This document shows positions 13,388-52,200 of a DNA stretch of 64,000 nt, piece by piece; the stretch's first letter is position 1, and each line of letters starts with the position of its first letter. Made by a program: the position numbers and the translations under genes. The stretch is from Allomyces arbusculus (Eukaryota; Blastocladiomycota; Blastocladiomycetes; Blastocladiales; Blastocladiaceae). The notes below the pieces were generated by a model. That model was not told where the DNA came from. It saw only the letters and a list, made by a program, of their open reading frames with translations, and ran no database searches. The stretch lies in contig JADHYV010000002.1 of NCBI GenBank assembly GCA_027604705.1, positions 496,001 through 560,000 on the forward strand, given 5' to 3'.

Positions 13388-16300
13388 ATGAACATTCTTC
13401 TGCAAGTACCCGGTACCGCTGGAGTCGCAAGGCCCGCTGCCTCGTCGTCGCCGCCACCGCCCGTTGCCATGGCCAGCACGCTGTCGGCACCCGCGGCCGC
13501 ACCACCACCACCACCGCCACCACCATCAATCCCAGTCACGCAAATCACGCCAGTCACTCCCATCACGCCAGTCACGCCAGTCACGCCCTTGGCAACGCCC
13601 GTCATCCAGCTCATGTCCAATACGAACGACGACCTCGACGACCCGGCCGCACAGATCCTCTATGCTGCTCACCTGCACGCGAACGTTTCGCGCCCTCGCG
13701 CCGCCTTCAACGCGCTCGTCGCCATTGGCGAATTCCTCGTCGACTGGCTCGACCACTACGTCGTGCTACTACCCGGCTCGTGGATCACAAGAATCTGGAC
13801 TTGGGCTGTGCTCGTCGCTGCTCTCACACAGGCCATCGTCATGCCGTTTCGCATCGCCTTCGGAATCACTACTGCACAGCTGCTGCAATCGTCGACGGCA
13901 TTGCAGGATACAAGCGAGGAGTCGCTCGCCGTCGAACACACGATTGCATCGACCGTGCTCGTCGCCGACATTTTCCTCGGGTTCCGAAAGGCCTTTTACA
14001 ACAGACGTGGCCTAGTCGAGACCGGCTCCTGGAATATGGCCATCCGCCAAGCGCGCCAGTCGCTCTTCTGGGATCTTGCCGGCAACATCCCCTGGGAGAA
14101 CTTTCTCGCGCCCGACGCGCCGTTTGCCGCGCAGGCGCTGCTGCCGCTGACGCGCTGTATCGTACTCTTTAAGTTTCTGCAATGGGTCCACGCGGGCGAA
14201 GGCCGGCTCACGGGAACGCTGTGGGTGCAAGCGACCAAACTCGTCGTGATGCTCGGGCTGATCTCGCATTATGGCGCCTGTGTGTGGTGGGTCGCCGGAT
14301 TGCCGCTTGCACCCTCAGAGCGGACATGGAGCGTTACCGGCGGCACGCATAGCGCCATCGACTTTACAAATTTGCTCACCGACGATGTGCCGTCACAGAC
14401 GCGGTACTCGAATTCCATGTATTGGGCGCTTCTCGGTACGGATGTGCGGGAATTCCTAGATCCCTTGTTTTTTGAAATGGCTTGGCGCTATCGTCTCTTG
14501 GACGCGGTTTGATTGCTTCCCTGACACGACGGTGCCGACCCCCTAGTTTTCACGGCACCGGGCCATGCCGACCTCGTTGCGCCGACATTGCGCGAGAAAA
14601 TGGTCGGCCTCGGCCTCTTCTTCATTGGCCACCTGGCCATTGGCTACACTGTCGCGAGCGTCACGTCGATGCTCGCCAACAGTGGCTTGCAGCGCGTGCA
14701 ATTCGTGACCAAAGTCGCGAGCATCACGCAGTTTTTGCGCACGAGCAAGTTTGACAAGGCAACGCAGAGCCGCGTGCTCGCGTTTTACGAGTTTTTGTGG
14801 CAGCGCAACGGCGGCATCAACACGCAAGACCTGTTTGCCGACTTGCCGACAGCGTTCCAGACTGAACTCGCCGTGTGGATGAACGGGCCGCTGCTCTCGT
14901 CAGTGCCGATTTTCCATGATACCGAGGAAGGATTCATGCGCATGCTGGTTTGTTGTGGCGGTCTCGGGCGAGGTGGGGGTGTTGGGTTGCGATTCTAATG
15001 GCCACGACGGTTTTCTGTAGAGCCTGGCCCTCCGACCCGTCATGTTCCTGCCCAACGAGTTCGTAGTCCGACGTGGCGATCTGGTGCGCTGCGTCACGCT
15101 CGGGATCCGCTCTCGCCTCCGCTCATCGTTCCCACGTTCTATCAGGGATCGGAAATGTACATGGTGCATTCCGGCATCCTCGAGGTTGTCAGCGACGACG
15201 GCACGCAAGTCTTTGATCGCATTTGCGACGGCGGCTTCTTTGGCGAGATCTCGCTGTACGCGAATTTCTCAACTCTCCGCTGTGGGCTCTCTTGCGGCTT
15301 GCTCATCACCCACCACTGCGTAGCTTTTTTGCACGTCCCCGCACGGCCAACGTGCGCACCGTCACGTTTGTCGATCTCTACGTCTTGACCAAGAGTGGGC
15401 TCGACGACGTCTTGCAGTTCTACCCAAGCATCAAGCAGAAAATCATGGCCACGGCACAGCAGCGGCTACAGGACCTCGAAAAGCGATTGCGCGCCCGCAC
15501 TGACTCGCTCAAGACCGGGAACCCGGACGTCCTTACGGCCGTCGTCCCGCCCGCCGTACCCGTCCCACTCGCGTCGGCGCCCATGACCAGCGCACCCGCA
15601 AGCCCTACGATCCCGATTATTTGCGAGCAAGATGACGAACGACTGCCACCGTCACCGTTCCCCCCACGGGCTATCACCATGAACAGCCCCACGCCGTTTC
15701 CCGGCACGCCCATCGGCGTGTCGACCTACCCAAACGCGTCCACGACGACAACGAGTTCCGGCAGCACCACGTCGTCGTCGGGCTTGCCATCCACGGCCAA
15801 ACCGACCTTGCCGCACCTAGGCCCTCACTCGTCGATGCATCTTGCCCCGAACAGCCGCTTCACGACCGCCGGCCGCGGCGGCGGTAGCAACATTTCCCTG
15901 GCCGCACGCAGCCAGCAGGCGCTGCTCTCCCTCGCGCGCGCGCTCGGCAGCCACGACACGATGCATTCTGCGTCGAGCATGTTGGCGGGCGGCTCGCGGC
16001 GCGGATCGGCGGCGCTTGAACGCGCCGCGCGCAACCAGGCCGTTCTCATGCAGAGGCCACGGCAGGCGTCAATTGCGTCGCGCGAAATCATGCCGGGCAC
16101 GAGTTTGGCCGCGTCGCGTCGCGCGTCGATTCTGTCGGTGCAGGGAAGGCCGGACACGGTGGCGAGGTCGCAGAACTCGTTTGTGTCGACGAACGACTTT
16201 ACGACGCCCGAGGGCGCGGGGAGCGCAATGGGGGTTGGAGTCGCGCCAACGTTGATGCCGGCGGCGGTCGGAGTGGCTGCGGCGGCGGTGGGCATGGGCA

Positions 16301-35486: not shown

Positions 35487-38400
35487 ATGCTCGGCCGCAA
35501 CGCCGCCGCCGCACGCAAGCCGGCGCGGCCCACGGCGCCCGCGCACCGCCCGAGCTCAGCGTCGTCGTCGGCCGCTGGCACGCGGCGCCCGCCAAGTGCC
35601 AATGCCAACAATACCAAGCCAACGCGCGCGTCGCCCGTCCCGCCGCCCGTCCCGCCCCCACCGCCGCTCCCGCCGGTGTCGGTCAACAATAACGACGATG
35701 ACGACAATGCCATGGACACGGATCACGTTCCCGCGAATGCCAACGACGAGCTCGACAGCGGCAACACGTCGTTCATGCTCGGCGACGGCGAAGACGACAG
35801 CATCATGGTCGTCGACGACACGCTCGCGTCGGCGCTCGACCACGACGACGATCACGACGGTACGCGACCCCTGCACCTTCCCCACCTGGATGTCTGTTGG
35901 TTGACGGAACGTGCGCTGCGCCCGCCCAACCGGCAGACCCGTTCCCGCTCGACCACGCGCACCTCTCCCCGTCGCCAAGCGGCCGCATGATTGCTGACGA
36001 CCTCGCGTCCCGCCGGTCGCACTCGTCTCTCTCAGACCACGGCGGTAACGGGTCGCAGGCCGGCTCCAGTGGGAATCCCAACGGCGCGGCCAATGGCGCG
36101 GCACGCCACCCGGCCGAGCGCAAGGCGCCCGGTGAAGGCGTTCGGTGGAAGCGTGAGGTATGTGCTTGTGAAGAGCGGTGTAGCCCTCACGGAGTGATCA
36201 CGCCCCCTGACCTGACCGCAACCCTGACGTAGGTCGACAAGATGTCGCAGCAGCTGCACATTACCCAAAAAGTGTTTCAAAAGGAACTCGAGCAGGACAA
36301 GGTGCGCATCACGCAGCTCGACGCCAACACCAAAGCGCTCAAGCGCACCATCTCGTCGCTGCGGTCGCAGATCCAGCTCAAGGACAACCAAGTCCTGCAG
36401 CTCACGGGCCAAGTCGACGCCTACCAGCAGCAGGCCGACAAGTTTGAGCGCCGGTGTGCAATGCTCGAGGCCAAATCGCGGTCCGCCGCCGCGTTACACG
36501 TCAAGGCCAAAGATGCCGAACGCACGCGCGCCGAAGTCGATCGGCTCAAGGCCGACTTGCAGGCGAAAGAGGCCGAACTCGCGACGATACACCAGGCACA
36601 CGACGCGCGCGTGGCCGAGATCGCTGCGCAGATGGCGGCCATCACGCAGGAACGCGACCATTTCGCGCGCGATAACCAGGCGCTCGAGGCCAAGTGTCGC
36701 GACGTGAAACACCATGCCGAGCAACTCATGGCCGCGCACGCGGCGCTCAAGGACCAGGCGGCGCGCGACCAGGCGCAACTCGCACAGGAGACCATGCGCG
36801 CGCGCGCCGAGACCGACGCGTTGCGTGTTCAGATCGAAGCGGCGGCGGGCGAAGTCGCCGAACGCGAGCGCGCGCTCGCGCACGTGCAGGCCGAACTCGA
36901 TTCGGTGAAGCGCGACGCGGAAAAGGCGCACGCCGACGCACAGGCCGCGCTCGATCGTGCGCGGACGACCCTCGCGCAGGCGAAGGACGAGGTGCAGCGC
37001 GCGCAGCGCGACGCGCAGGCGCGGGTCGAGTTGCTGGAGCGGCAGCTTGCGCAAGTGACGGCCGAACTGACGCAGCTGCGGGAAGAGCATGCGGCTGACC
37101 AGAAACGCGCCTCCGAGGAACTCGCCAATGTGCAGCACCGCGGGCAGGCGCAGCTCGACCAGCTCGCGGCGGACGTGGCAGCAGCGCGCAAGGACGCCGA
37201 GACTGCACGCAATGATGCGCGACAGGCTGTTGACCAGGCGCGTGCGGACGCGCAGGCCAAGGTCGACCGACTCCGTGCGCAATTTGCCGACGAGCGCGCG
37301 CGTCTCGAGCGCGACGCGCAGCGTGCGATTGATGCGGCGCAGCACACGACACACGATGAATTGGCCGCCGCACATGCACGGGAGCTCGAGGCTATGCGCG
37401 CGGAGCTTGCGGCGACGCACGCGGTCGAACTCGCGAGCGCGCAGGCCGAGATTGATCGGCGCGAAGCACAGGCCGCGACGGACCGCGCCCGGATCGAGCG
37501 CGAGGCGCAGAACGCGATTGCAGCGGCCAAGCAGGCTGCGCGCGAGGAGCAGAGCAAGGCCGACCGGATGCGCGCGCAGATGGCGGCCGAACGCACGCGG
37601 ATGGAACAGGAGGCGCAGAGGGCGATTGAGGCCGCGCAGCAGGCCGCGCGCGATGAGCAGGTCAAGGTCGAGCGCCTGCGTGCGCAGTTTACGGACGAGC
37701 GCGCTCGGCTCGAACGTGAGGCGCAAAGGGCGATTGACGCGGCCAAGCAAACGACGCACGAGGAATTGGCGGCGGCGCACGCGAGGGAACTCGAGTCGGT
37801 GCGTGCCGACGCCGAGTCGCGTGTTTCGGCCGCGCAGCATGCCCTGGTCGCGGTACAGGCCGAGCACGCGGCACTCTCCGAAGCTTGGGAGGTTGAACGT
37901 ACCTCGCTTGCCGGCGACCGCAACGCATGGCGCGAGCGTGCCGATCGCGCAGCGGCCGAGCGCGACCAGTTTGCAAACGAGGCCCGCGCCGAAATCGACC
38001 GGCTCACGACTGCGCTCAACTCTGAGCGTGATGCCCGCACCAAGGACACGGCCACGCACGACCAGCTCACCGCCGAGTCCCGTGCCGAAATCGACCGGCT
38101 GTCTGCCGCACTCGCCGCCGAGCGCGACGCTCGTGCCCAGGATACGTCCGACCGCGACCAGCAAATCGCTGATGCTCGTGCTGAGATCAACCGTCTTTCG
38201 TCCGCTCTCACCACCGAGCGCGACGCGCGTTTGCAAGTTGCTTCCGAGCGCGACCATTTCGTCACGGAAGCGCGCGCCGAAATCGACCGGCTCGCCAAGA
38301 CCCTTGCGCAGGACAAGGCCAACGCCGAGCAGCTCGCCGACCAGCTCGCCGAGGCCGCGCACGCGCACGAGCAAGCGGTGCAAATGCTGCGTGAGGAACT

Positions 38401-41400
38401 CGACCGTGAGCGTGAGCGGTTCGAGACCGAGTGGACTCGCCGCGAGGACCAGGTCGCGCACGAGTATGCGACGCGCGAGGAAGAAGCCAGGATGGAGCAC
38501 GAGACGGCCATCGAGCAGATGCGCGACGAGCACGCGGCCGAAATGGAGCTCGCGCAGCGGCAGTTCAAGGTGCAGCTGGCCAATGAGCTTGCGACCTACG
38601 AGGAGGAGTGGGCTGGCACGCACCAGACGGCTATTGAGCAGCTGCGCGCCGAGCATGCGGCACAGGTCGATGCGATGCGGCAGCAGTTTGACGCACAACT
38701 CGCGCAGGTGCACGCCGAGGCCGCTGAGCGGCAGGCCGCGTGGGAGCGCGAGCATCATGCGGATGTGGCGGCTGCGCGGCAAGAGTGGCAGCAGAAGTGG
38801 GATGCCGAAGTTGAGCGGATCACGGCGCAGCATCAGGCTGAACTCGCCGCGCACGACGCGCAGTTGCAGGCGCAGCTCGACGCCGTCCAGCAGCAGGCGC
38901 GCAAGGTCCAGGCCGAGTGGAGCCACGATCACGACCAGCTGCAGGCGGCACTCGAGGCGGCTCAGTCGACGTGCGCGCGTCTGGAAGCGTCGGTCGCGGT
39001 CTTGCAGAACGAGCTCGGCGACGTGTCGGCGGCGCGCGCTGCACTCGAGACCGACTTTGCTGACAACCAGGCGTCGCTCGATGCCCGCGTCGCCGACTTG
39101 GAAGCCGCGCACGCCCAGATTGCCGCGCTGCAGGCGCACATTGCCGAGCGCGACGCCCAGCTGTCCGCTGCATCAGCTCAGATCGAGGTGCTCCAGGCAC
39201 AGGTCGCCGACCGCGACCAGACCATCCGTGCCATTGAGGCCCAAGTGCACGCATTGCGCGAAGATATGGGCCGGTCGGCCAGCGAACACGTTGCGCATCT
39301 CGAGGCAATGCGTGCCGAGCACGCGGCGGTTGTGTCGGAGCGCGATGCACTCGCTCAGGAGGTCCAGGACGCGACCAACGCGCACGGTAGTGTCTTGCAA
39401 GAGCTCGAGGTCATGCGGTCAGAGCACGCGTCGATCGTGTCGGAGCGCGATGCGCTCGCCCAGCAAGTCGAGGACACGGCCCGTGCGCACAGCAACGTTG
39501 CCCAGGAGCTCGAGGCCGTTCGGTCCGAGCACGCGGCGGTCACGCGCGAGCGCGAGATGCTTACGCAACAGGTCCAGGACGCGGCGAACGCGCACGGGAC
39601 CGTGGCGCAAGAACTCGAGGCGATTCGGTCCGAGCACGCCGCTATCGTGCACGAGCGCGACACTCTGGCGCAGCAAGTGCAAGATGCGACCAGTGCGCAC
39701 AGCAATATCGCGCAAGAGCTCGGGTCGGTCCAGCAGACGCTCGCACAACTGCGCGCCGAGTACGACGCGGCGGCCAGCCGCGTGCAGAACATGTCCGAGC
39801 ATATTCAGACCGTCGAGGCCCAGCTGCAATCGGCGCGCGACCAGCAGGTGAAAACCGAGTCGACGGCCGAGCAGTTGCATCACGAGTTGCAGGAGGTAAA
39901 TGGCCGTGCTGCCGAGTTGGAAGAGGCGCGGGATCGGCTGCTGGGGCTCGTCGAGCAGATGCAGGAGGAACACAACGAGTCGGCGCGGGATTACGACGGC
40001 AAGGTTGCCACGCTCGAGAGCACTGTTGCGGACCTCAAAGCGTCGCTCGCTGGTCGGGTCGCGCAAGTCGCGGATCTGGAGCAGCAAGTGCACGAGCTGC
40101 AGTCGCAAGGGCGCGCCCTTCAGGACGAGTACCAGCGCATCGTCGCTAACCGCGACCAACTCCAGCAACAAGTGGCCGCTCTCGACGTGCAGCTTCGCCA
40201 AGGGACCGAGCGGGAGCAATCGACCGTTTCTGCGTTGCGCACGCAGCTGTCCAACCTCGAGGCTGAGGCGACGCGGCACGTCGAGCGTCTCCAACAGCAG
40301 CTGGCTGCTGCGCAACAAGAGACTGCCGACACGCGGCAACGTCTGGACCAGGCGCAGGCCGAGTTGGAGGCCGTTTCGGCCAACCTCAAGGCCACCCATG
40401 GGTCCTTGTCAGCCGAAGCGAGGTCACTGCGTGACGCCCTAAGCCACTACCGCATGCTTCTCCGCGAAGTTTTCGCCAAGCTCGATGCTGAGCGCGATGC
40501 CCGCGAGAAAGTCGAGTGGGAGCTCAAGCACAAGGACGCGCTTCGCGTCGCGGACGACGACCCAGCCGTGCGCGACTACGAGCGGTATCTCAAGCAACTG
40601 GGTGAGTACGAGCTGCGTGTAGCCCTCGAGCTCGCCGTCAGTGCATCGCAAATGCTGCCGCTGGTAGCGGAGCAAGTCGTGGACGAGCGCAACTCGGCAG
40701 CCGATGAGCGCATGTTTGTTGTATTGCTCGACACGCTGCTCGTGGGCGAGTCGACGGACCGTGCCGGCGCCGAGGCGCACTTAATGAGGTTGGTCCACAG
40801 GAGTTTGCGCGATTCCACGCCCGTGGCGGAGCACTTTGTCGTCGTGGCCCCGGACTCGGGCGCTGTCACGTTCGCAACACAATGTCTCGACTGGATCCAA
40901 GGCGTGCTCGCCGACTACGAGGCGACCATGGCCAACATGGCCGCGTCGCTCGCGCGGTCCGTGAGCCCCGAGCTCGCCGACCAGCTGGCCTCGCAGAACC
41001 ACGCGCTGCGGACGCACGTTGACGAGCTCGAGGTGATGCTGACGCAGACACGCAACGCCTACACGACGCTCGAGCGCGTTCATGGTGACATGCAGTCACG
41101 GCTCGCCGAGTACCAGACGATCGTCGAGGAAAAGGCGGCGCTCGAGCGCGACCTGGCGTCGGTCGAGCAACTCAATGCCGATCTGCTCGGGCACCAGAAC
41201 CCGAATCAAAAGATCCGGCACGTGGCGCGCATGCGCGAGGAACTGCACAAGTTCAAGGACATGTCGATGCAGCTCGCGCGCGCGCGCGATCAGGCGCTCG
41301 CACGGGTCACGGAACTCGAGGCCGAACTCGACTTGTACCGCGCGCAGGTCGCGCCACGGCACTCGGGTGCGTCAGGTAGTAGTTTCACGGCGGCACGTGG

Positions 41401-41629
41401 CGCCGCGTTCCCACAGCAAGCACCCACATTGGCCATGGCGACCCCCGCACCGGCTGCGTTGGCGTCGTCATCGACGACGGGCAAGGGGCCACGGTTTTTG
41501 CGCAATTTGTGGTCGGGCGCGGGGACGGGCAACTCGAATGCCGCGGCCAATGGCGCCAACGCGAGGACACCGTTGATGGCCGGGCAGGATGAGAATATGC
41601 TCATGGACGAAAGCGGCAGCGCGGCATGA
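35487..41629 (+). CDS. Giant coiled-coil protein with HMMR/KIF15-type C-terminal motif
   Basis: Exons 35487-35859, 35937-36157 and 36233-41629 give 1,996 residues; phases fit (donors GTACGC and GTATGT). The first 200 residues are disordered and acidic/proline-rich. From about residue 199 (VDKMSQQLHITQKVFQKELE) to about 1900 the chain is almost unbroken coiled coil, alanine/glutamate/arginine-rich, with internal tandem repeats of 32 and 35 residues. A globular-looking break (RMFVVLLDTLLVGESTD, APDSGAVTFATQCLDWIQGV) lies near residues 1690-1760. At about 1849 is LLGHQNPNQKIRHV followed by MREELHKF, a close match to the LLGHQN-KQKI-HV-KLK-EN motif at the C-terminus of HMMR (RHAMM) and kinesin KIF15. 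No kinesin motor is present. By family knowledge such proteins bind the spindle and microtubule organising centres; that role here is inference. No membrane segment or signal peptide. Confidence 0.85.
37961..38344 (+). repeat. Four tandem 96-bp coding repeats
   Basis: Four 32-residue units, each with the core RAEIDRL or RAEINRL and SERDAR or similar, start at 37961, 38057, 38153 and 38249. They lie in the coiled-coil gene and keep reading frame. Divergence between units suggests old duplication. Confidence 0.85.
39308..39727 (+). repeat. Four tandem 105-bp coding repeats
   Basis: Four 35-residue units (five heptads each) begin at 39308, 39413, 39518 and 39623 with RAEHAAV or RSEHA.. and continue ERDALAQ.VQDA..AH. 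Unit length is exactly 105 bp throughout, so the heptad register is preserved. Confidence 0.9.
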
Positions 41630-43184: not shown

Positions 43185-46100
43185 CTATGTCCTATCCCCC
43201 TCCGCCAGTCCTTCCCCCTCGGATAGTCCATCCGAGTCCGACGCCATTGACAGACTCGGCCCGCCGAGCGGCGACCGAGCGCGCCCCCCGCTCCCGGCAC
43301 TCCCCGTCGTCCCGCTCCCACCACTCGCCGATAACCGCTGGTGCGCCTTGGCCGCCGTCTCACCTCCCTCACCCAGACTCCCGCCCCCTGCCGGGGCCGA
43401 CCTCGCTGCCGTTTCCGCACCTCCTCCACCCTCTCGCATCTCAGCCGCCGCACCCCCCATCATCGCAGGCGCCGCGGTTGCCGGCGCAGCGGGCGCAAGC
43501 GGCCCGACCGTCGCGCCAGACTCGTTCAACCCGGCCTTGGACGACCGCGCGATCCCCGCCAACTTGCTCCCGAGCGCCGAGAACAAGTGCGGTGCCGCCT
43601 GGCCCACGACCGTGCTCGTCGTGCGCCGGCCGAGTCGGCCGGGTAGCGCCGTCGCACTGAAGCCGGCATCCGGAACGGCTGCTGCGGCCGCTGCCGCTGC
43701 CGCTGCCGCGGCCTCCTCTTCCTTGCGCTTGGCGTCGCGTTCTTCGCGCTCGGCGACGGCCTTGCGGAAGACGGCGACCATGGCGGGCGAAGCGGAAAGA
43801 ATGTCGTCAAAGTCGGCTTTTTTGAGGACGCACTGTGGGTGGGTCGTGAGGAATTAGCTTTCTTTGGGACGGGGGGGGGGGGGGGGGGCGAGGGCGGGAG
43901 GCGAACATTACAAATAACGTGGGGTTTTTGTAGTTAACGGCGCGGGGGCAGCGCCCACACAGTCAGACAAAAAAACAAGGGAANNNNNNNNNNGTGGGTG
44001 TGGGTGTTTGGGGGTCGCGGCCGCCGGCGGCCGCGCCCCCCCCCCCCCCCGCCGCCCCCCCCCCCCCCCCCCCCCCCCCCCGCGGGCGAAGGGGAGGCGA
44101 GCGTACCAGTTCCGTGTCGGTGTTGGTCTTGACGGTCGCGGTGCGTCGGCACTCTCTGTCGGACGAAACACGAGGGTCAGCCCCGAAAATGTCGAGTGGA
44201 GAGCGTTTGCCCAGTGAACGTACTGGAACAGTGCGACCTCGCCAAAGTAGGCCGACACGCCGAGCTTGGTCAAAACCTTGGTCTCGTCCTTGTTAAGCAC
44301 ATCGACGCCGCCGCGGCGAATGAAATACATTTCGGACCCTGGTGCGAGAGAATTCACCGCGTCAGTTCGTCTCGTCTTTCCCGTGCGTGCCGTCGGTCAA
44401 GATGGTTGCGTACCAGCGTCGCCTGCTTTGCATGCCTATCGATGGAATAACATGAGTGAGGTCCTTGGTCACAGACGGACAGGGGTAAGGGATGCGTACG
44501 TAAAAACCCTTGGGCGCCGTGATCAGCGAAATGCGCTCACAGAGCGCCACCTTGAACAGGTCGTCGGTTTCGCGGAATAATGGGACCTGGACCGCGACAC
44601 GAGGAAGGTGGTGAGTGGCCGTGGTGCAACGATGATCACGTCCGGCGCGCGGTGCTGGCCGTAGAACAGTTCGGTGGTACCTCGCAAATGAGCCTACGGC
44701 CGAGTCAAGCGTCGGTGAGCAGGTTGCACAAACCCGAGAGCTAGGCGCAAAAAGGAAAAGGAAAAAGTGCCGTACGCGTAGTAGAGGTGCACGCACACCT
44801 CGAGTCGCAAACTCTTGGGCAATGCCTCGCCGAGCAGCAGCTCTGTGTTGACGCCGCGCTTGTGCACCCACTCGAATTCCTCCTGCTGCAGGACTTTGCG
44901 CTGCAGGGGCGGCGGGAAGTGTTTGTTGATCATGTACTGCGCGAGGAACTGCCGCTGGATTTTGCGGTGCTTTTCTGTGAATCGGTGGGATAGCGGTCAA
45001 TATTGGAATACCGCGGATTATGATGCGCAAAGTGGCGCAACAACGTACCGGCCTTGTCGACGGTCGCCTGCGTGTCAAACGAACGCACGATTTGCGAGAG
45101 ATTGCCCACAATGCTGCCATAAAGACACGCCGCGAACAGAGCTTCCTACCAAGAGAAGAGGGCGATCATCGACGCGGGCCGTCAGTGCGAGTCTCGACGA
45201 GTGCCAAACGCCGTGGAAGAACCGCACCATGCACTGGTATAGCATCTCGTCGGGCACGACCGTGTGCCGATGAATGAAGAACAGCGCGCGCTGGCTGATA
45301 AAACTGTGGCGACACAAAGAAGGCGACGTCAGCCTTTGGACGGCTCACGCGAGTGACGGAGATGTGTAAATAGGCAACGCACAAGGTGACCAAATATCGC
45401 CACCATACGTCAGGCAACGACCCCTGCTCGTCGAGATCGAGGCTATTCACCGTGATCCAGCGGCCAGGGTCGCTGGTGCGCGTCTCCATAAACCAGAACC
45501 CGCACGTGTCGATGTGACTGATATAGACCGACAGGAGCAGATTCTTGATGAGCCGTGAAATGGGCGAGCTGACCATCGGGAAATTGGCCTGCAGCACCCA
45601 TCGCACGGTGCCCGTTGTGCCAACGAGCCGGAGAAGTCGCAGCAACGAGAACCAAAACAGGAGCGCAGGGACGTCGCTATTGAGCGCGCTCCAATCAGCG
45701 GTTCGGTCGCGAATCCATCAAGGAGAAAGTGACAAATAGTACCCTGGGCGATACAAAAACCGTGCCTGGTACTCGCTGCCCAAGTGGGGGTCCGGCGTGC
45801 CCATGTAGACGTGACCGTCCGGGTGGACAAAGTACGGGTTCGTGCACTCCATGTCGTCGAGCGACCCGTCGGCCAGCGCAATGCAGATCGGAATGTAGTC
45901 AAACGGAATGGCACCGATCACGTCGAGCCATCCACTTCGATGAAAGAAGTAGTGTTCACGCTTGCTTTTCGGGTCGAACAGCAGCTGGCCATACTGGTCA
46001 ATGTAGGGCCGCACCACGTTGAAGGCGATGCGCACGATGCACAGGGAATCGAGGAAAAAGAAGCTGTAGATGAAGTCGCGGCCATAGTCGCAGCAAAAGG

Positions 46101-47827
46101 CGAATGTGAACGGCACGACAATCAGGTAGTCTACAAGTGGCCAACATCAAAGTTCAGTCAGTTCTAATTTTTCAACATCTGGTCAACAGAGCCACTAACG
46201 TACACATGTCTATGGTCCATGAAATGCGATCGAATATTCTCCACCACGTCGCGTCGGGTCTCTCCAAGAGAGTCGCAACAGCGCCACGATAACAGACCAG
46301 GAACGGAAACCTCGGTTCGGTGCCCAGCGATTCGGGCCCCTCGGCAGAATCCAGAGACGAAACCACTTCGCCTGGATCGGGAATTCGTCGTCTGCCCAAC
46401 GTGGCGGCCTTGGCACTCGGCGCAGGCACGCTCACGGCCGACTTGGACAAACTGTGAACGCCATCACCGCCTCCACCGCCATCCCCGTCTTCCTCCTCAT
46501 CATTCTCGTCCGAATCCTCGCCTGTCGGCGACACGGGACGATCAATACTGACCGACTCACCCGCCGATGGCATGTGCAAGCTCGGCGCATCCGGCACACC
46601 AGCGATTCGCCCGGCCTCGAGATCGGCCGACGCCGACGACTCCATAGTCCCGCTCCGCCCCACCGTGCGCTGCCGCGCGAGCGACCGCGCGATCGTGATG
46701 TGGCGAATCGCCGACGTGACGTTACCCGGCAACAGGAGCTGTGCGGGCATCGGCACGGTGAGCCCCGCCGCCGCCGCCGCCGCCGACAGGTGCTGGTCGA
46801 CGGTGGCGGATTTCGGTATGGTCGGTCTCGGCGAGGACGATGGCGACATCACGTCAGGCGGGTTACGTGGTGCCGTGCGCATCGTGTCCTGCGGCGAGCC
46901 ACCGCCAGGGCGACGCGCCATGGTGGGCACGGGCGACGGTGCCGCCGGCCCGCGCAGTTTCGTCGATGATGGCGACGCATTGGGCGAATCGGGTCTCGTA
47001 GTCGTCAATCCAGCCGGCCCCGGCGCGGAGAGAGACGCTCTGCGGAGCCGTGGAGTCGGCAGGGACCCGTCCGCCGATGCTGTGAAGCGTCGGGGAGACA
47101 TATCGAGCGGAGACTGCGCCTTAGACGGGGTGGATCGCGGTGCGGTCGAGTCGCGCGGAGCCAGAGGCATGGTCGTGTACTCGCTCGCCGTGCCGCAGCT
47201 GTCGAGCGTTTTGGTCGAGTGCGCCGTCGGATGGCGCAACGCGGAATCGCTGCTGTCGGAGAGCGATTTGGAGTTGGTGGTGGGCAGGCTCGAGACCGAG
47301 CTGGAGACGATCTGCGGCACGTCGGCGACAGGCACCGCTCCGCGGGTAGGAGCATGCGCGTGCGCTGCCGGCTCGCGCGGTGCGCTGGTCGTTGGTCCGA
47401 CCGCCGGCGAGGACCGCGTCATGGTATGCGGCAACGTCAGGGACACGGTCGACGCAGACTCAATGGTCAGCGCCGGCAAGACGTTGCTGCGCTGCATCGT
47501 TGATGCGATGGTCGACGCGGTCTCGCGGTCGAAAATGAGCTCAACGGCACTGCCGCCGCGACTGCTCGGGATGCGCATGATTTGCGGGATCGCAAACGGC
47601 GAGCTCGCAGTGCCGCTGCCGCTGCTGCCGAGCTGGCCTGCTGCCGTACTCGCCGAGTCGGCGTCGCTGAAGCTGTCGTCATCGCTCGACGAGTCGGTGA
47701 CAATGTCGGGCACACTCGGGTGCAGCGTCGTCGGTGCGGCGTGGCGGGCGTGGCGGGAGTCGCGGGAGTCGCGGGAGTCGCGGGAGTCGCGGGTGTCGCG
47801 GGTGTCGCGGGCATCGCGGTCCTGCAT
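43185..47827 (-). CDS. CNG/HCN-like channel B, twelve exons, degenerate pore
   Basis: Minus-strand exons: 47827-46204, 46130-45743, 45676-45383, 45303-45210, 45145-45049, 44974-44776, 44693-44681, 44586-44500, 44435-44414, 44338-44224, 44155-44107, 43832-43185. They give 1,209 residues with every phase consistent; the third exon could start at 45688. About 530 disordered residues precede S1 (MYYLIVVPFTFAFCC). Then S2 (FFFLDSLCIVRIAFNVV), S3 (GWLDVIGAIPFDYIPI), S4 (ALLFWFSLLRLLRLVG), S5 (LIKNLLLSVYISHIDTCGF), a pore region RYLVTFFISQRALFFIHRHT that lacks GYG or GET, and S6 ending LYGSIVGNLSQIV. A C-linker (EKHRKIQRQFLAQYMINKHF) leads to a cNBD with GFY-ACKAGDAGSEMYFIRRGG, YFGEVALFQ and RRTATVKT. 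Two exons are only 13 and 22 bases. The last intron holds an assembly gap. Upstream N-terminal exons beyond 47827 are possible. Confidence 0.85.
43871..43888 (+). repeat. Poly-G run in the last channel B intron
   Basis: Eighteen consecutive G on the plus strand, near an assembly gap and a longer poly-C block. Could be genuine G-tract DNA or local assembly error. Confidence 0.8.
43984..43993. other. Assembly gap (10 N)
   Basis: Ten undetermined bases in the last intron of channel B, surrounded by homopolymer G and C runs that probably stopped sequencing or assembly. Real gap size is unknown; the exons on both sides join in phase, so no coding sequence need be missing. Confidence 0.99.
44036..44081 (+). 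repeat. Poly-C block in the last channel B intron
   Basis: Runs of 15 and 27 C separated by GCCG. On the transcribed (minus) strand these are G-tracts with quadruplex potential. Confidence 0.85.
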
Positions 47828-49291: not shown

Positions 49292-52200
49292 TCACAGGAC
49301 CGCCACCACGCCGCGCTTGACCATCTCCACCTCATACTCATCCTGGCCAAACACGATATGCCCGATATACCGATCCATGAGCGCATACAACTCGCGATAC
49401 GCGTTCCCGAAATTCATCGAGTGGTCGGAATCCGGGAAAATCTGCAGTCGGTACGCGTGCGCGCCGGCCGTCTGCAACTTGCGCACGAGCGCCATGGCCT
49501 GCTGCACGTGCACGTTGTCGTCACCCGACCCGTGCACGAGCAGGAACCGCGTGCGCTTGAACCCGAGCATCTGGTTCACCGCACTCGACTTGTAACCCTG
49601 CGGATTCGCCGTGGGCGTGCTCATGTACCGTTCCGTATAGACCGAGTCGTAAAACCGCCAGTCGGTCACGGGCGCGACGGCAATCGCGTACTGGAAGACG
49701 CCCTCGACGTTGCGCTCCACGACCTTGGACGCCATGTACCCGCCATAACTCCACCCCCAGATCCCAATGCGTTTCGCGTCGACCCACGGCTGCGCCGCGA
49801 GCCACTTGGCCGCATTCACTTGATCGGCCGCCTCAAGGTCGCCGAGTCGGCGGTAGACGGCGTTGCGGAACCGCAGGCCGCGGAACCCGGTCCCCCGACC
49901 GTCCACGACGACACACACCATCGACCGATTACTCGCGAGGTACGTGTGCAAGTCGACGTCCCACTTTTGCTGCACGAGCTGCGAGTTTGGGCCGCCGTAG
50001 ACGCGCATGAACACCGGGTACTGCTTCTTGGGGTCGAATCCGGGCGGCGTGTAAACCACGGCGTTCACGTCCACGGTCGCGCCATTCGGCGCCGCCGGGT
50101 CGAGGGGAACCGGGATGCGCGTGTACTGCACGCCCGGCAACGCGTACTGCGCGGCCGTCGCATTCAATTTGTGGTTATCCTGTAGAACCACCGAAAACGC
50201 GCCGTCGCCGGGCTTCTTGATCGCCTGCCACGGAATCCCGGGCCCCTCGTAGGCGACCCAGTAGAACTGCGCAAACGTCGAGAATTGCGCCTGGTAGTAC
50301 CCGCGCGGCAGCCGCGCGTCGACGAGCGGCGGGTCGGCGGTCGCGATCTTGACGGCGGTGCCCGACAGAATCTCGTCGGTCAGTTCAACGTACGCGAGCG
50401 CGCGCTGCGTCGACTCGTGCTGCGTCGTGACCAAGTAGACGCGGCGGTTCACCGGGTCGACCCCCTTGATCGCGACGACTTGCCAGTCGCCCTTGGTCAG
50501 CATCACCGGGTCGCGCGTCTTGGCCGTCGCAAAGTACCCGACGTGCGTGAACCCGTCCACATTGACCAGGTCGACGTACCCCGCGGTCTGCGGCCGAGGT
50601 GGGACGGGCGCGTCCGTCTCGGCGCCGTCATCATCCTCGTTATCGGGAGCGCTGAGCACGACGGGTGTCCACTGGTGGTTCAGTTCGAGCCACCCGTCGG
50701 GGGACCCAATCTCGCGCACGACGACGGCCGACACTTTGGATGGGGACAGGTTCACGGCCACAACGCGCTGCTGATTCTGGATCCGGTTGAGCACTTTCAC
50801 GAGCAGCGTCGGCCCAACCCACAATACCGACCCGTAAATCACGTCCGTGCCCAGCGCCTGCGTGACCGCCGGCGGCAAGGGCACCGCGGCCACGGGTGTC
50901 GCCTTGGCCGGCACAATCCCCCGCGCCAGGGAATACACGTGCAGCGAAGTCGTCGGGTTCGTGTACCCCGGCTTCGGGTACCGCAATGCGACTTGCGACG
51001 GGTAGGGCGCATCTTTACGTTCTTTCGCGTCAAAGTAGTACGGGAACGAGTAGAGCGGCACGTCCTTGTCGTCAAACCGCAGCCAGGAAATCGAGTTCCC
51101 GTCTGGCGCCCAGTAAAACGCGACGTTGGTCGCGAGCACTTCCTCTTCGTAGACCCAGTCGGGCACGCCGTTCTGAACCGTCGCCGACCCGTCGAACGTG
51201 ATGCGCATCTCCTTCCAGTCGACGACCAGGTAGAGGTCATTGTCGCGCACAAACGCGAGGTTGTGGCCCTTGGGTGCCCACCGAGCGACACGCACCGATG
51301 CGGCACGGCCGGATTCGGTCATCGGGAACGTGCGCTGTGCGTCGACGTCGTAGATGACGTACTCGGCCGTCGACGAGTGCCGCCACAGCTTTTCTTTCCG
51401 GGTCGGGAACAGGACAAACTTGCGGTCGGGCGAGACCGAGTAGTCGTCGTTGGGTAAATAGAGCGGCATCTTACCGTCGGGCGTGCGCAACTTGTCGCCC
51501 GGCACAAGAATGCGCTCTTCGTTGGTTTCAATGTGCTGCACGATCAAGTTGCCCGTGGCCCCGTCGAGACGCACAAAGTCGCCGTCGCGGCCGCCCTTGA
51601 GCCAGGCGACGGTCGATTTCTGAGCGTGCAGCTTGCCGGTGAAAATGTCGTCAATCGTCACGGATTTGCGGCCGTCGATCGGATTGGCGGGCGGTGGGGG
51701 CAGTGGGGGGCGCTTGCTGGGCGGGGCGGCGGCTCCTGGTGGAAGAAAGCAAGGGGGTCAGTTCACGTTGGATCGACAAGAGGGAAGGAGCAGAGCACAA
51801 GGACCGACCTTGCGTCGTGTAGGACCAGGCGCTCACGGTGAGCACGAGGCAGAGAATGGCCACGGCGAGCAGGCCGAGGTTGCGCTTCCAGTGGCGCTTG
51901 GCGGCGGCCCAGTATGAGTAGGACGAAGCGATCTGGTTGAAGGGATCACCATAAGCGAAAGAACCTGAGCAACACGTCGAATCGAAACCAACAACGTACC
52001 TTGGGCGGCGTCTCATCCCCACCGTGACCGTAACTGCGCAAAAAGTCGGTGCGCTCATCGACGCCGTCCTCGTGGTCGTCGCTCGAGTACAAGTTCACGA
52101 CCTGGCCCGGCATGGGGGATGACGTCGACACGGCCGCGAACGGCGACACCAGGGGCTGCGCGGCAAACAGTGTCGTGGTTGACTGCGTGGGCGACCGTGG

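Follow-up and report, generated by a model that had tools for sequence, protein, structure and literature searches.

CNBD channels with altered pores and the Allomyces locus

In channels that carry a cyclic-nucleotide-binding domain (CNBD), a superfamily with CNG, HCN, EAG, KAT and SthK members, the selectivity filter is one of the elements that tolerate least change. The gene described here, channel B, lies on the minus strand of a 64,000-nucleotide (nt) stretch of Allomyces arbusculus DNA (contig JADHYV010000002.1, positions 496,001 to 560,000; this whole stretch is called the window, and all coordinates below are counted from its first letter). As read from its sequence, channel B appears to be a six-transmembrane CNBD-channel homologue, related to channels that cyclic AMP or GMP opens, that has lost its selectivity filter while retaining S6, the C-linker and the CNBD.

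By analogy, the main precedent for such a filter-dead protein would be HCNL1, the HCN-like proton channel of zebrafish sperm. According to the available excerpts of the papers cited here, the central pore of HCNL1 is non-functional through changes in the filter, and protons pass instead through its voltage-sensor domain; its CNBD is also non-functional, lacking a key arginine, and a methionine occupies the position of the third S4 arginine (PMC10651576). The vertebrate subunits CNGA4, CNGB1 and CNGB3 do not make functional homomers; in CNGB1 and CNGB3 a lysine or arginine points to the filter entrance (PMC10761061). In the zoosporic fungus Blastocladiella emersonii, the channel BeCNG1 has a GYGD filter (PMC4046227) and acts downstream of light-driven cGMP (PMC4046227, PMC9616733). 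A survey of fungal channels found neither CNG nor HCN homologues in the genomes examined there and gives accession numbers for five Kv homologues in Allomyces macrogynus; channel B is not described in the excerpts of that survey available to us (PMC3410928).

Channel B resembles HCNL1 in being a CNBD-channel homologue with an altered filter, its lack of conduction being predicted from sequence. Unlike HCNL1, it has retained the CNBD arginine, and its S4 carries glycines, at places three and four of the series, rather than a methionine. It is of the same CNBD-channel type as BeCNG1, which has the GYGD filter that channel B lacks. With CNGB1 and CNGB3 it would share a positive side chain near the filter entrance and the absence of functional homomers, both features being predicted for channel B.

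The pore exon of channel B lacks a known filter motif

The gene model, built from splice sites and protein homology, spans 47827..43185 and comprises 12 exons encoding 1200 residues with no internal stop. Exon 3 (45383..45676) encodes S4, S5 and the start of the pore helix, ending ...DVWWRYLVT plus TT; from S5 to S6 the protein can be aligned with GORK. Exon 3 is followed by intron 3 (45304..45382, 79 nt, GTGCGT...CACAG), by the pore exon 4 (45228..45303), which reads (T)FISQRALFFIHRHTVVPDEMLYQCM, and by exon 5 (45049..45145), which holds S6 (EALFAACLYGSIVGNLSQIV) and the start of the C-linker. From RYLVT to the start of S6 there is no glycine, and none of the known filter motifs (GYG/GFG, GE and GQ types) is present; bulky or charged residues stand there instead. 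On the predicted peptide, the lack of a filter is secure, as the initial annotation had proposed.

Codon usage supports the reading frame of this exon. In the model frame, exon 4 has a mean log-likelihood per codon of +0.16, against -0.50 and -0.78 in the other frames, and a third-position GC content (GC3) of 0.84. Scored apart, both halves of the exon prefer the same frame (+0.15 and +0.15). A FIGT string in a different frame of this stretch had raised the possibility of a frameshift inside the filter, and the two scores speak against it. Intron 3, translated onward in the frame of exon 3, has a codon score of -0.12 and is thus only mildly non-coding. No local repeat or inverted segment was found around the pore.

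Alternative splicing was explored by enumerating chains of up to three introns that reach S6 in frame and without a stop, under three settings of donor and intron length. With GT..AG introns no shorter than 45 nt there were 4163 chains, which yield 941 distinct open peptides; a minimum of 30 nt raised these figures to 8846 chains and 1592 peptides, and the admission of GC donors as well to 32413 chains and 7001 peptides. None of the peptides in any of the three sets carries a known filter motif, also after the plant filter triplets were added to the motifs. Almost all peptides that retain PDEMLYQCMEALF also retain FFIHRHTVVPDE (16/16 with introns of at least 45 nt, 26/26 with at least 30 nt, and 24/25 with GC donors). 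The possibility that an exon hidden between 45382 and 45304 supplies a standard filter, named in the initial annotation as what would overturn its reading, therefore fails for this DNA: no enumerated GT/GC..AG chain brings a filter back.

Residues at the filter position

The pore of channel B is shorter than that of its relatives. Counted from the tyrosine of RY up to the position opposite the glutamate of PDE, the distance is 24 residues in channel B, 26 in TAX-4 and 27 in both SthK and channel A (a second channel-like gene of the window, described below), so that the segment from pore helix to S6 is 2-3 residues short. The correspondence with the RY...P-DE frame of CNG channels, which had been described as in register, is therefore approximate only.

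Which residues line the pore depends on where this gap is placed. SthK, a cyclic-nucleotide-gated K+ channel of bacterial origin (PDB 7rsh and others), shares with channel B the RYL..F start of the pore helix and the S6 signature YG..(V/I)GN, but has TIGYGD where channel B has FIHRHT. In the phmmer alignment, HRHT (codons at 45261..45272) stands opposite GYGD and is followed by a three-residue gap. MAFFT and an HMM (hidden Markov model) of three sequences place H-R opposite G-Y with the gap immediately afterwards, whereas phmmer against GORK opens the gap inside the pore helix and brings FFIH to the GYGD position. The filter position is free of glycine in both registers. The candidate triplets, HRH and FFI, contain basic or aromatic residues, unlike the plant CNGC filter triplets given in the available part of PMC7830781. 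The lining of the pore by arginine and histidine, as put forward earlier, is thus likely but not firm: it agrees with the SthK register and, for H-R only, with MAFFT and the HMM, and it disagrees with the GORK register.

The sensor half is conserved and the membrane half diverged

In contrast to the pore, the sensor half of channel B is conserved. Pfam recognizes its CNBD (PF00027, E 3.1e-16, with 59.6 bits where the cut-off is 27.5), and the top solved relative is SthK (phmmer, E 4.6e-31, over residues 256-507 of a core of 511 residues; of 171 distinct matching PDB sequences the best 60 were listed). These two matches bear out the assignment of channel B as a CNG/CNBD-type channel homologue. 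The C-linker is continuous with S6, a single SthK alignment spanning pore, S6, C-linker and CNBD. The phosphate-binding cassette is present with FGE and the arginine (YFGEVALFQECRRTATV aligned with FFGEMALILRAPRTATV), SthK likewise having FGE and RTATV, and the CNBD looks intact.

The membrane half is less easily recognized. S4 (SLLRLLRLVGTTGTVRW, 45598..45648, read from the DNA within exon 3) has the series R-R-G-G-R at every third residue, and since few charges remain, voltage gating is doubtful. The stretch from S4 to S6 matches plant and bacterial CNBD channels (21 sequences, E 0.0009-0.04). By sequence comparison, channel B is a protein whose sensor half is conserved and whose membrane half is strongly diverged.

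Gene structure of channel B

Exon 1 (46204..47827, open frame, donor GTACGT) encodes an N-terminus of low complexity, as judged by eye, up to the start of S1 (...IFDRISWTIDM), so that about 500 residues precede S1. Exon 2 (45755..46130) encodes S1-S3 (YYLIVVPFTFAFC..., HRSGWLDVIGAIPFDYI; segments named by eye) in the frame with the top codon score; its donor was taken as GTATCG, and GTACTA, a few bases further, is a possible alternative. Downstream of S6, the SthK alignment supports exon 6 (44776..44974, C-linker), with channel B about 6 residues longer than SthK around the exon 5/6 join (phmmer and MAFFT), exon 8 (44500..44586, start of the CNBD), exon 10 (44224..44338, with YFGEVALF, also covered by the Pfam match) and exon 11 (44107..44155), whose ECRRTATVKT is aligned to PRTATV of SthK. 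Exon 12 (43185..43832) encodes the end of the CNBD, the C-terminal tail and the stop.

Two microexons lie in the C-linker/CNBD part: exon 7 (44681..44693, 13 nt, within HLYYALICEVPLF) and exon 9 (44414..44435, 22 nt, ACKAGDA). Both were included because they are needed to hold the frame and complete the CNBD, and each restores the SthK alignment. The frame used by the model has the top codon score in 11 of the 12 exons, the exception being exon 9; in exons 1, 3 and 12 the used frame wins with scores near zero. The introns measure 64-94 nt, except for the last (44106..43833, 274 nt). The model was built by hand and GT..AG sites were chosen for all 11 introns, so that the form of the splice sites is not independent evidence. 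An open frame over 12 exons, including 13-nt and 22-nt microexons that the CNBD requires, makes the gene unlike a decaying pseudogene.

The last intron also contains the sole run of N in the window (10 N at 43984-43993, beside long runs of G), probably an assembly gap.

Channel A, relatives and the surrounding window

Channel A lies on the plus strand, about 25 kb from channel B, with its pore at ~14400-14700 (14401-14690). Two open one-intron joins exist in the tested stretch; the intron 14436..14546 gives a pore of ordinary length (RYSNSMYWALLVFTAPGHADLVAPTLREKM), which reads YWALLVFTAPGHADLVAPTLREKM, as long as that of SthK and with GHAD replacing GYGD. In the PDB it matches TAX-4 and channels related to it best, and on sequence grounds channel A is diverged but retains a K+-type frame. 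Channels A and B match convincingly over the C-linker only (97 residues, 30%) and on this evidence are not close paralogues. The proposal that two diverged pores in one window define a lineage-specific class of CNG-like proteins therefore holds as far as the divergence of both pores, while a single class is unsupported.

No relative of channel B was found in collections of viral contigs and genome contigs, neither of which consists of eukaryote genomes; nine genome stretches fitted a search pattern and none was a relative, and a DNA pattern for S6 found no relative among the viral contigs. Given the nature of these collections, the empty searches say little about conservation. As a prokaryotic control, 68 loci were retrieved with a SthK query from which the filter had been removed, and their 570 open reading frames were screened with the pore HMM. 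A pore could be aligned in 32 of the 68 loci, and all 32 read GYGD or GYGE, in a screen that leans towards canonical pores, the HMM having been made from three conducting channels; no pore was reported in the other 36, many of which had matched in the CNBD part only. The retention of GYG in every alignable pore suggests that the loss of both filter glycines in channel B is not ordinary drift.

The GC content of the window is 63.6%, beside 61.6% in Allomyces macrogynus and 56% in Catenaria anguillulae (PMC8371127), and would fit a blastocladiomycete. Elsewhere in the window, a frame of 821 residues (49292-51757, minus strand) contains DPP IV N-terminal and S9 peptidase domains. An open frame of 1798 residues (36233-41629, plus strand) is convergent with channel B; by eye it is coiled-coil-like, with much Ala, Gln and Glu.

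Possible roles of a filter-less CNBD channel

The explanation we favor, tentatively and at a little short of an even chance, takes channel B for a CNBD-channel homologue whose own filter passes no ions and which acts as a modulator of a conducting CNBD channel. The precedent of HCNL1 indicates that a CNBD channel gene can persist with a dead filter. Channel B would bind cyclic nucleotide, its homomer would pass no cations through its own pore, and it would join or compete with a conducting CNBD channel in mixed tetramers, a candidate partner being a BeCNG1-like GYGD channel such as occurs in zoosporic fungi. In a mixed pore it might contribute positive charge or a plug, together with a further nucleotide sensor, a role that can be likened to that of the modulatory CNGB subunits. 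Several observations weigh against this modulatory role. CNGB subunits keep TIGG, whereas channel B has no filter glycine at all; channel A resembles channel B only in the C-linker; and the prokaryotic control is biased as described above. In addition, the S1-S5 stretch alone retrieved no convincing channel from the PDB (top channel at E 0.46, among unrelated enzymes), the S4-S5 stretch gave no matches, and Pfam Ion_trans was not reported for the core (E up to 0.01), so that the assembly of channel B into channel tetramers is itself something we infer.

Channel B could also assemble with itself into a non-conducting cyclic-nucleotide receptor: movement of the S6 bundle, driven by the C-linker and CNBD, would be passed on to signaling partners through the long tails at both termini, with no channel partner or ion flux. 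The conservation of the sensor and coupling parts but not of the filter, and the ~500 residues ahead of S1, fit such a receptor; we nevertheless consider it rather unlikely, as a scan of the core found no catalytic or docking domain, and no such case appears in the passages of the literature consulted. Unlikely as well is a departure of the exon from the real gene, the remnants of a filter having been erased by a minor error in the sequence or by decay of the allele that this strain carries. The segment is indeed 2-3 residues short, its divergence from relatives extends beyond the filter to the pore helix, FIGT occurs in another frame, and a stretch of N interrupts the last intron of this same gene. 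Codon bias, however, backs the printed frame in both halves of exon 4, a lone frameshift would fail to bring PDEMLYQCM and S6 back together, local repeats are absent, and the remainder of the gene is open. An unusual splice, outside GT/GC..AG or with more than three introns, that supplies a normal filter is barely credible: although the gene model contains microexons of 13 and 22 nt, intron 3 offers just 79 nt, and 0 of the 7001 distinct open peptides, GC donors included, have a filter motif.

A quite improbable explanation is that channel B conducts in another way under cyclic-nucleotide regulation, passing protons, anions or a metal-gated flux by a His-Arg-His ring, or an omega current via the voltage-sensor domain. 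The titratable residues at the filter in the SthK register (H-R also by MAFFT and the HMM), the R-R-G-G-R series of S4 and the proton conduction of HCNL1 through its voltage-sensor domain with a dead pore (PMC10651576, available excerpts) speak for it. Against it, the GORK register places FFIH at the filter, and HCNL1 has the key S4 methionine and a non-functional CNBD, unlike channel B. We hold it very improbable that the route is specifically a cyclic-nucleotide-controlled one other than a cation filter, whether an axial His-Arg-His ring (for protons or anions, or metal-dependent) or a leak of protons or cations through a voltage sensor whose S4 bears the glycines. If it were so, the protein would be the mirror image of HCNL1, with the filter dead and the nucleotide sensor living.

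To our knowledge, and in literature searches that reached mostly papers outside subscription journals, no dead-pore CNBD-channel gene beyond HCNL1 has come to light. Channel B poses the question of whether the sensor half of a CNBD channel is useful when no ions flow through its own subunit, or whether it serves solely within mixed tetramers. If it proves conserved in relatives, it would be, as far as we know, the second CNBD-channel gene, after HCNL1, to have been retained despite a dead central pore, in this case together with its nucleotide sensor.
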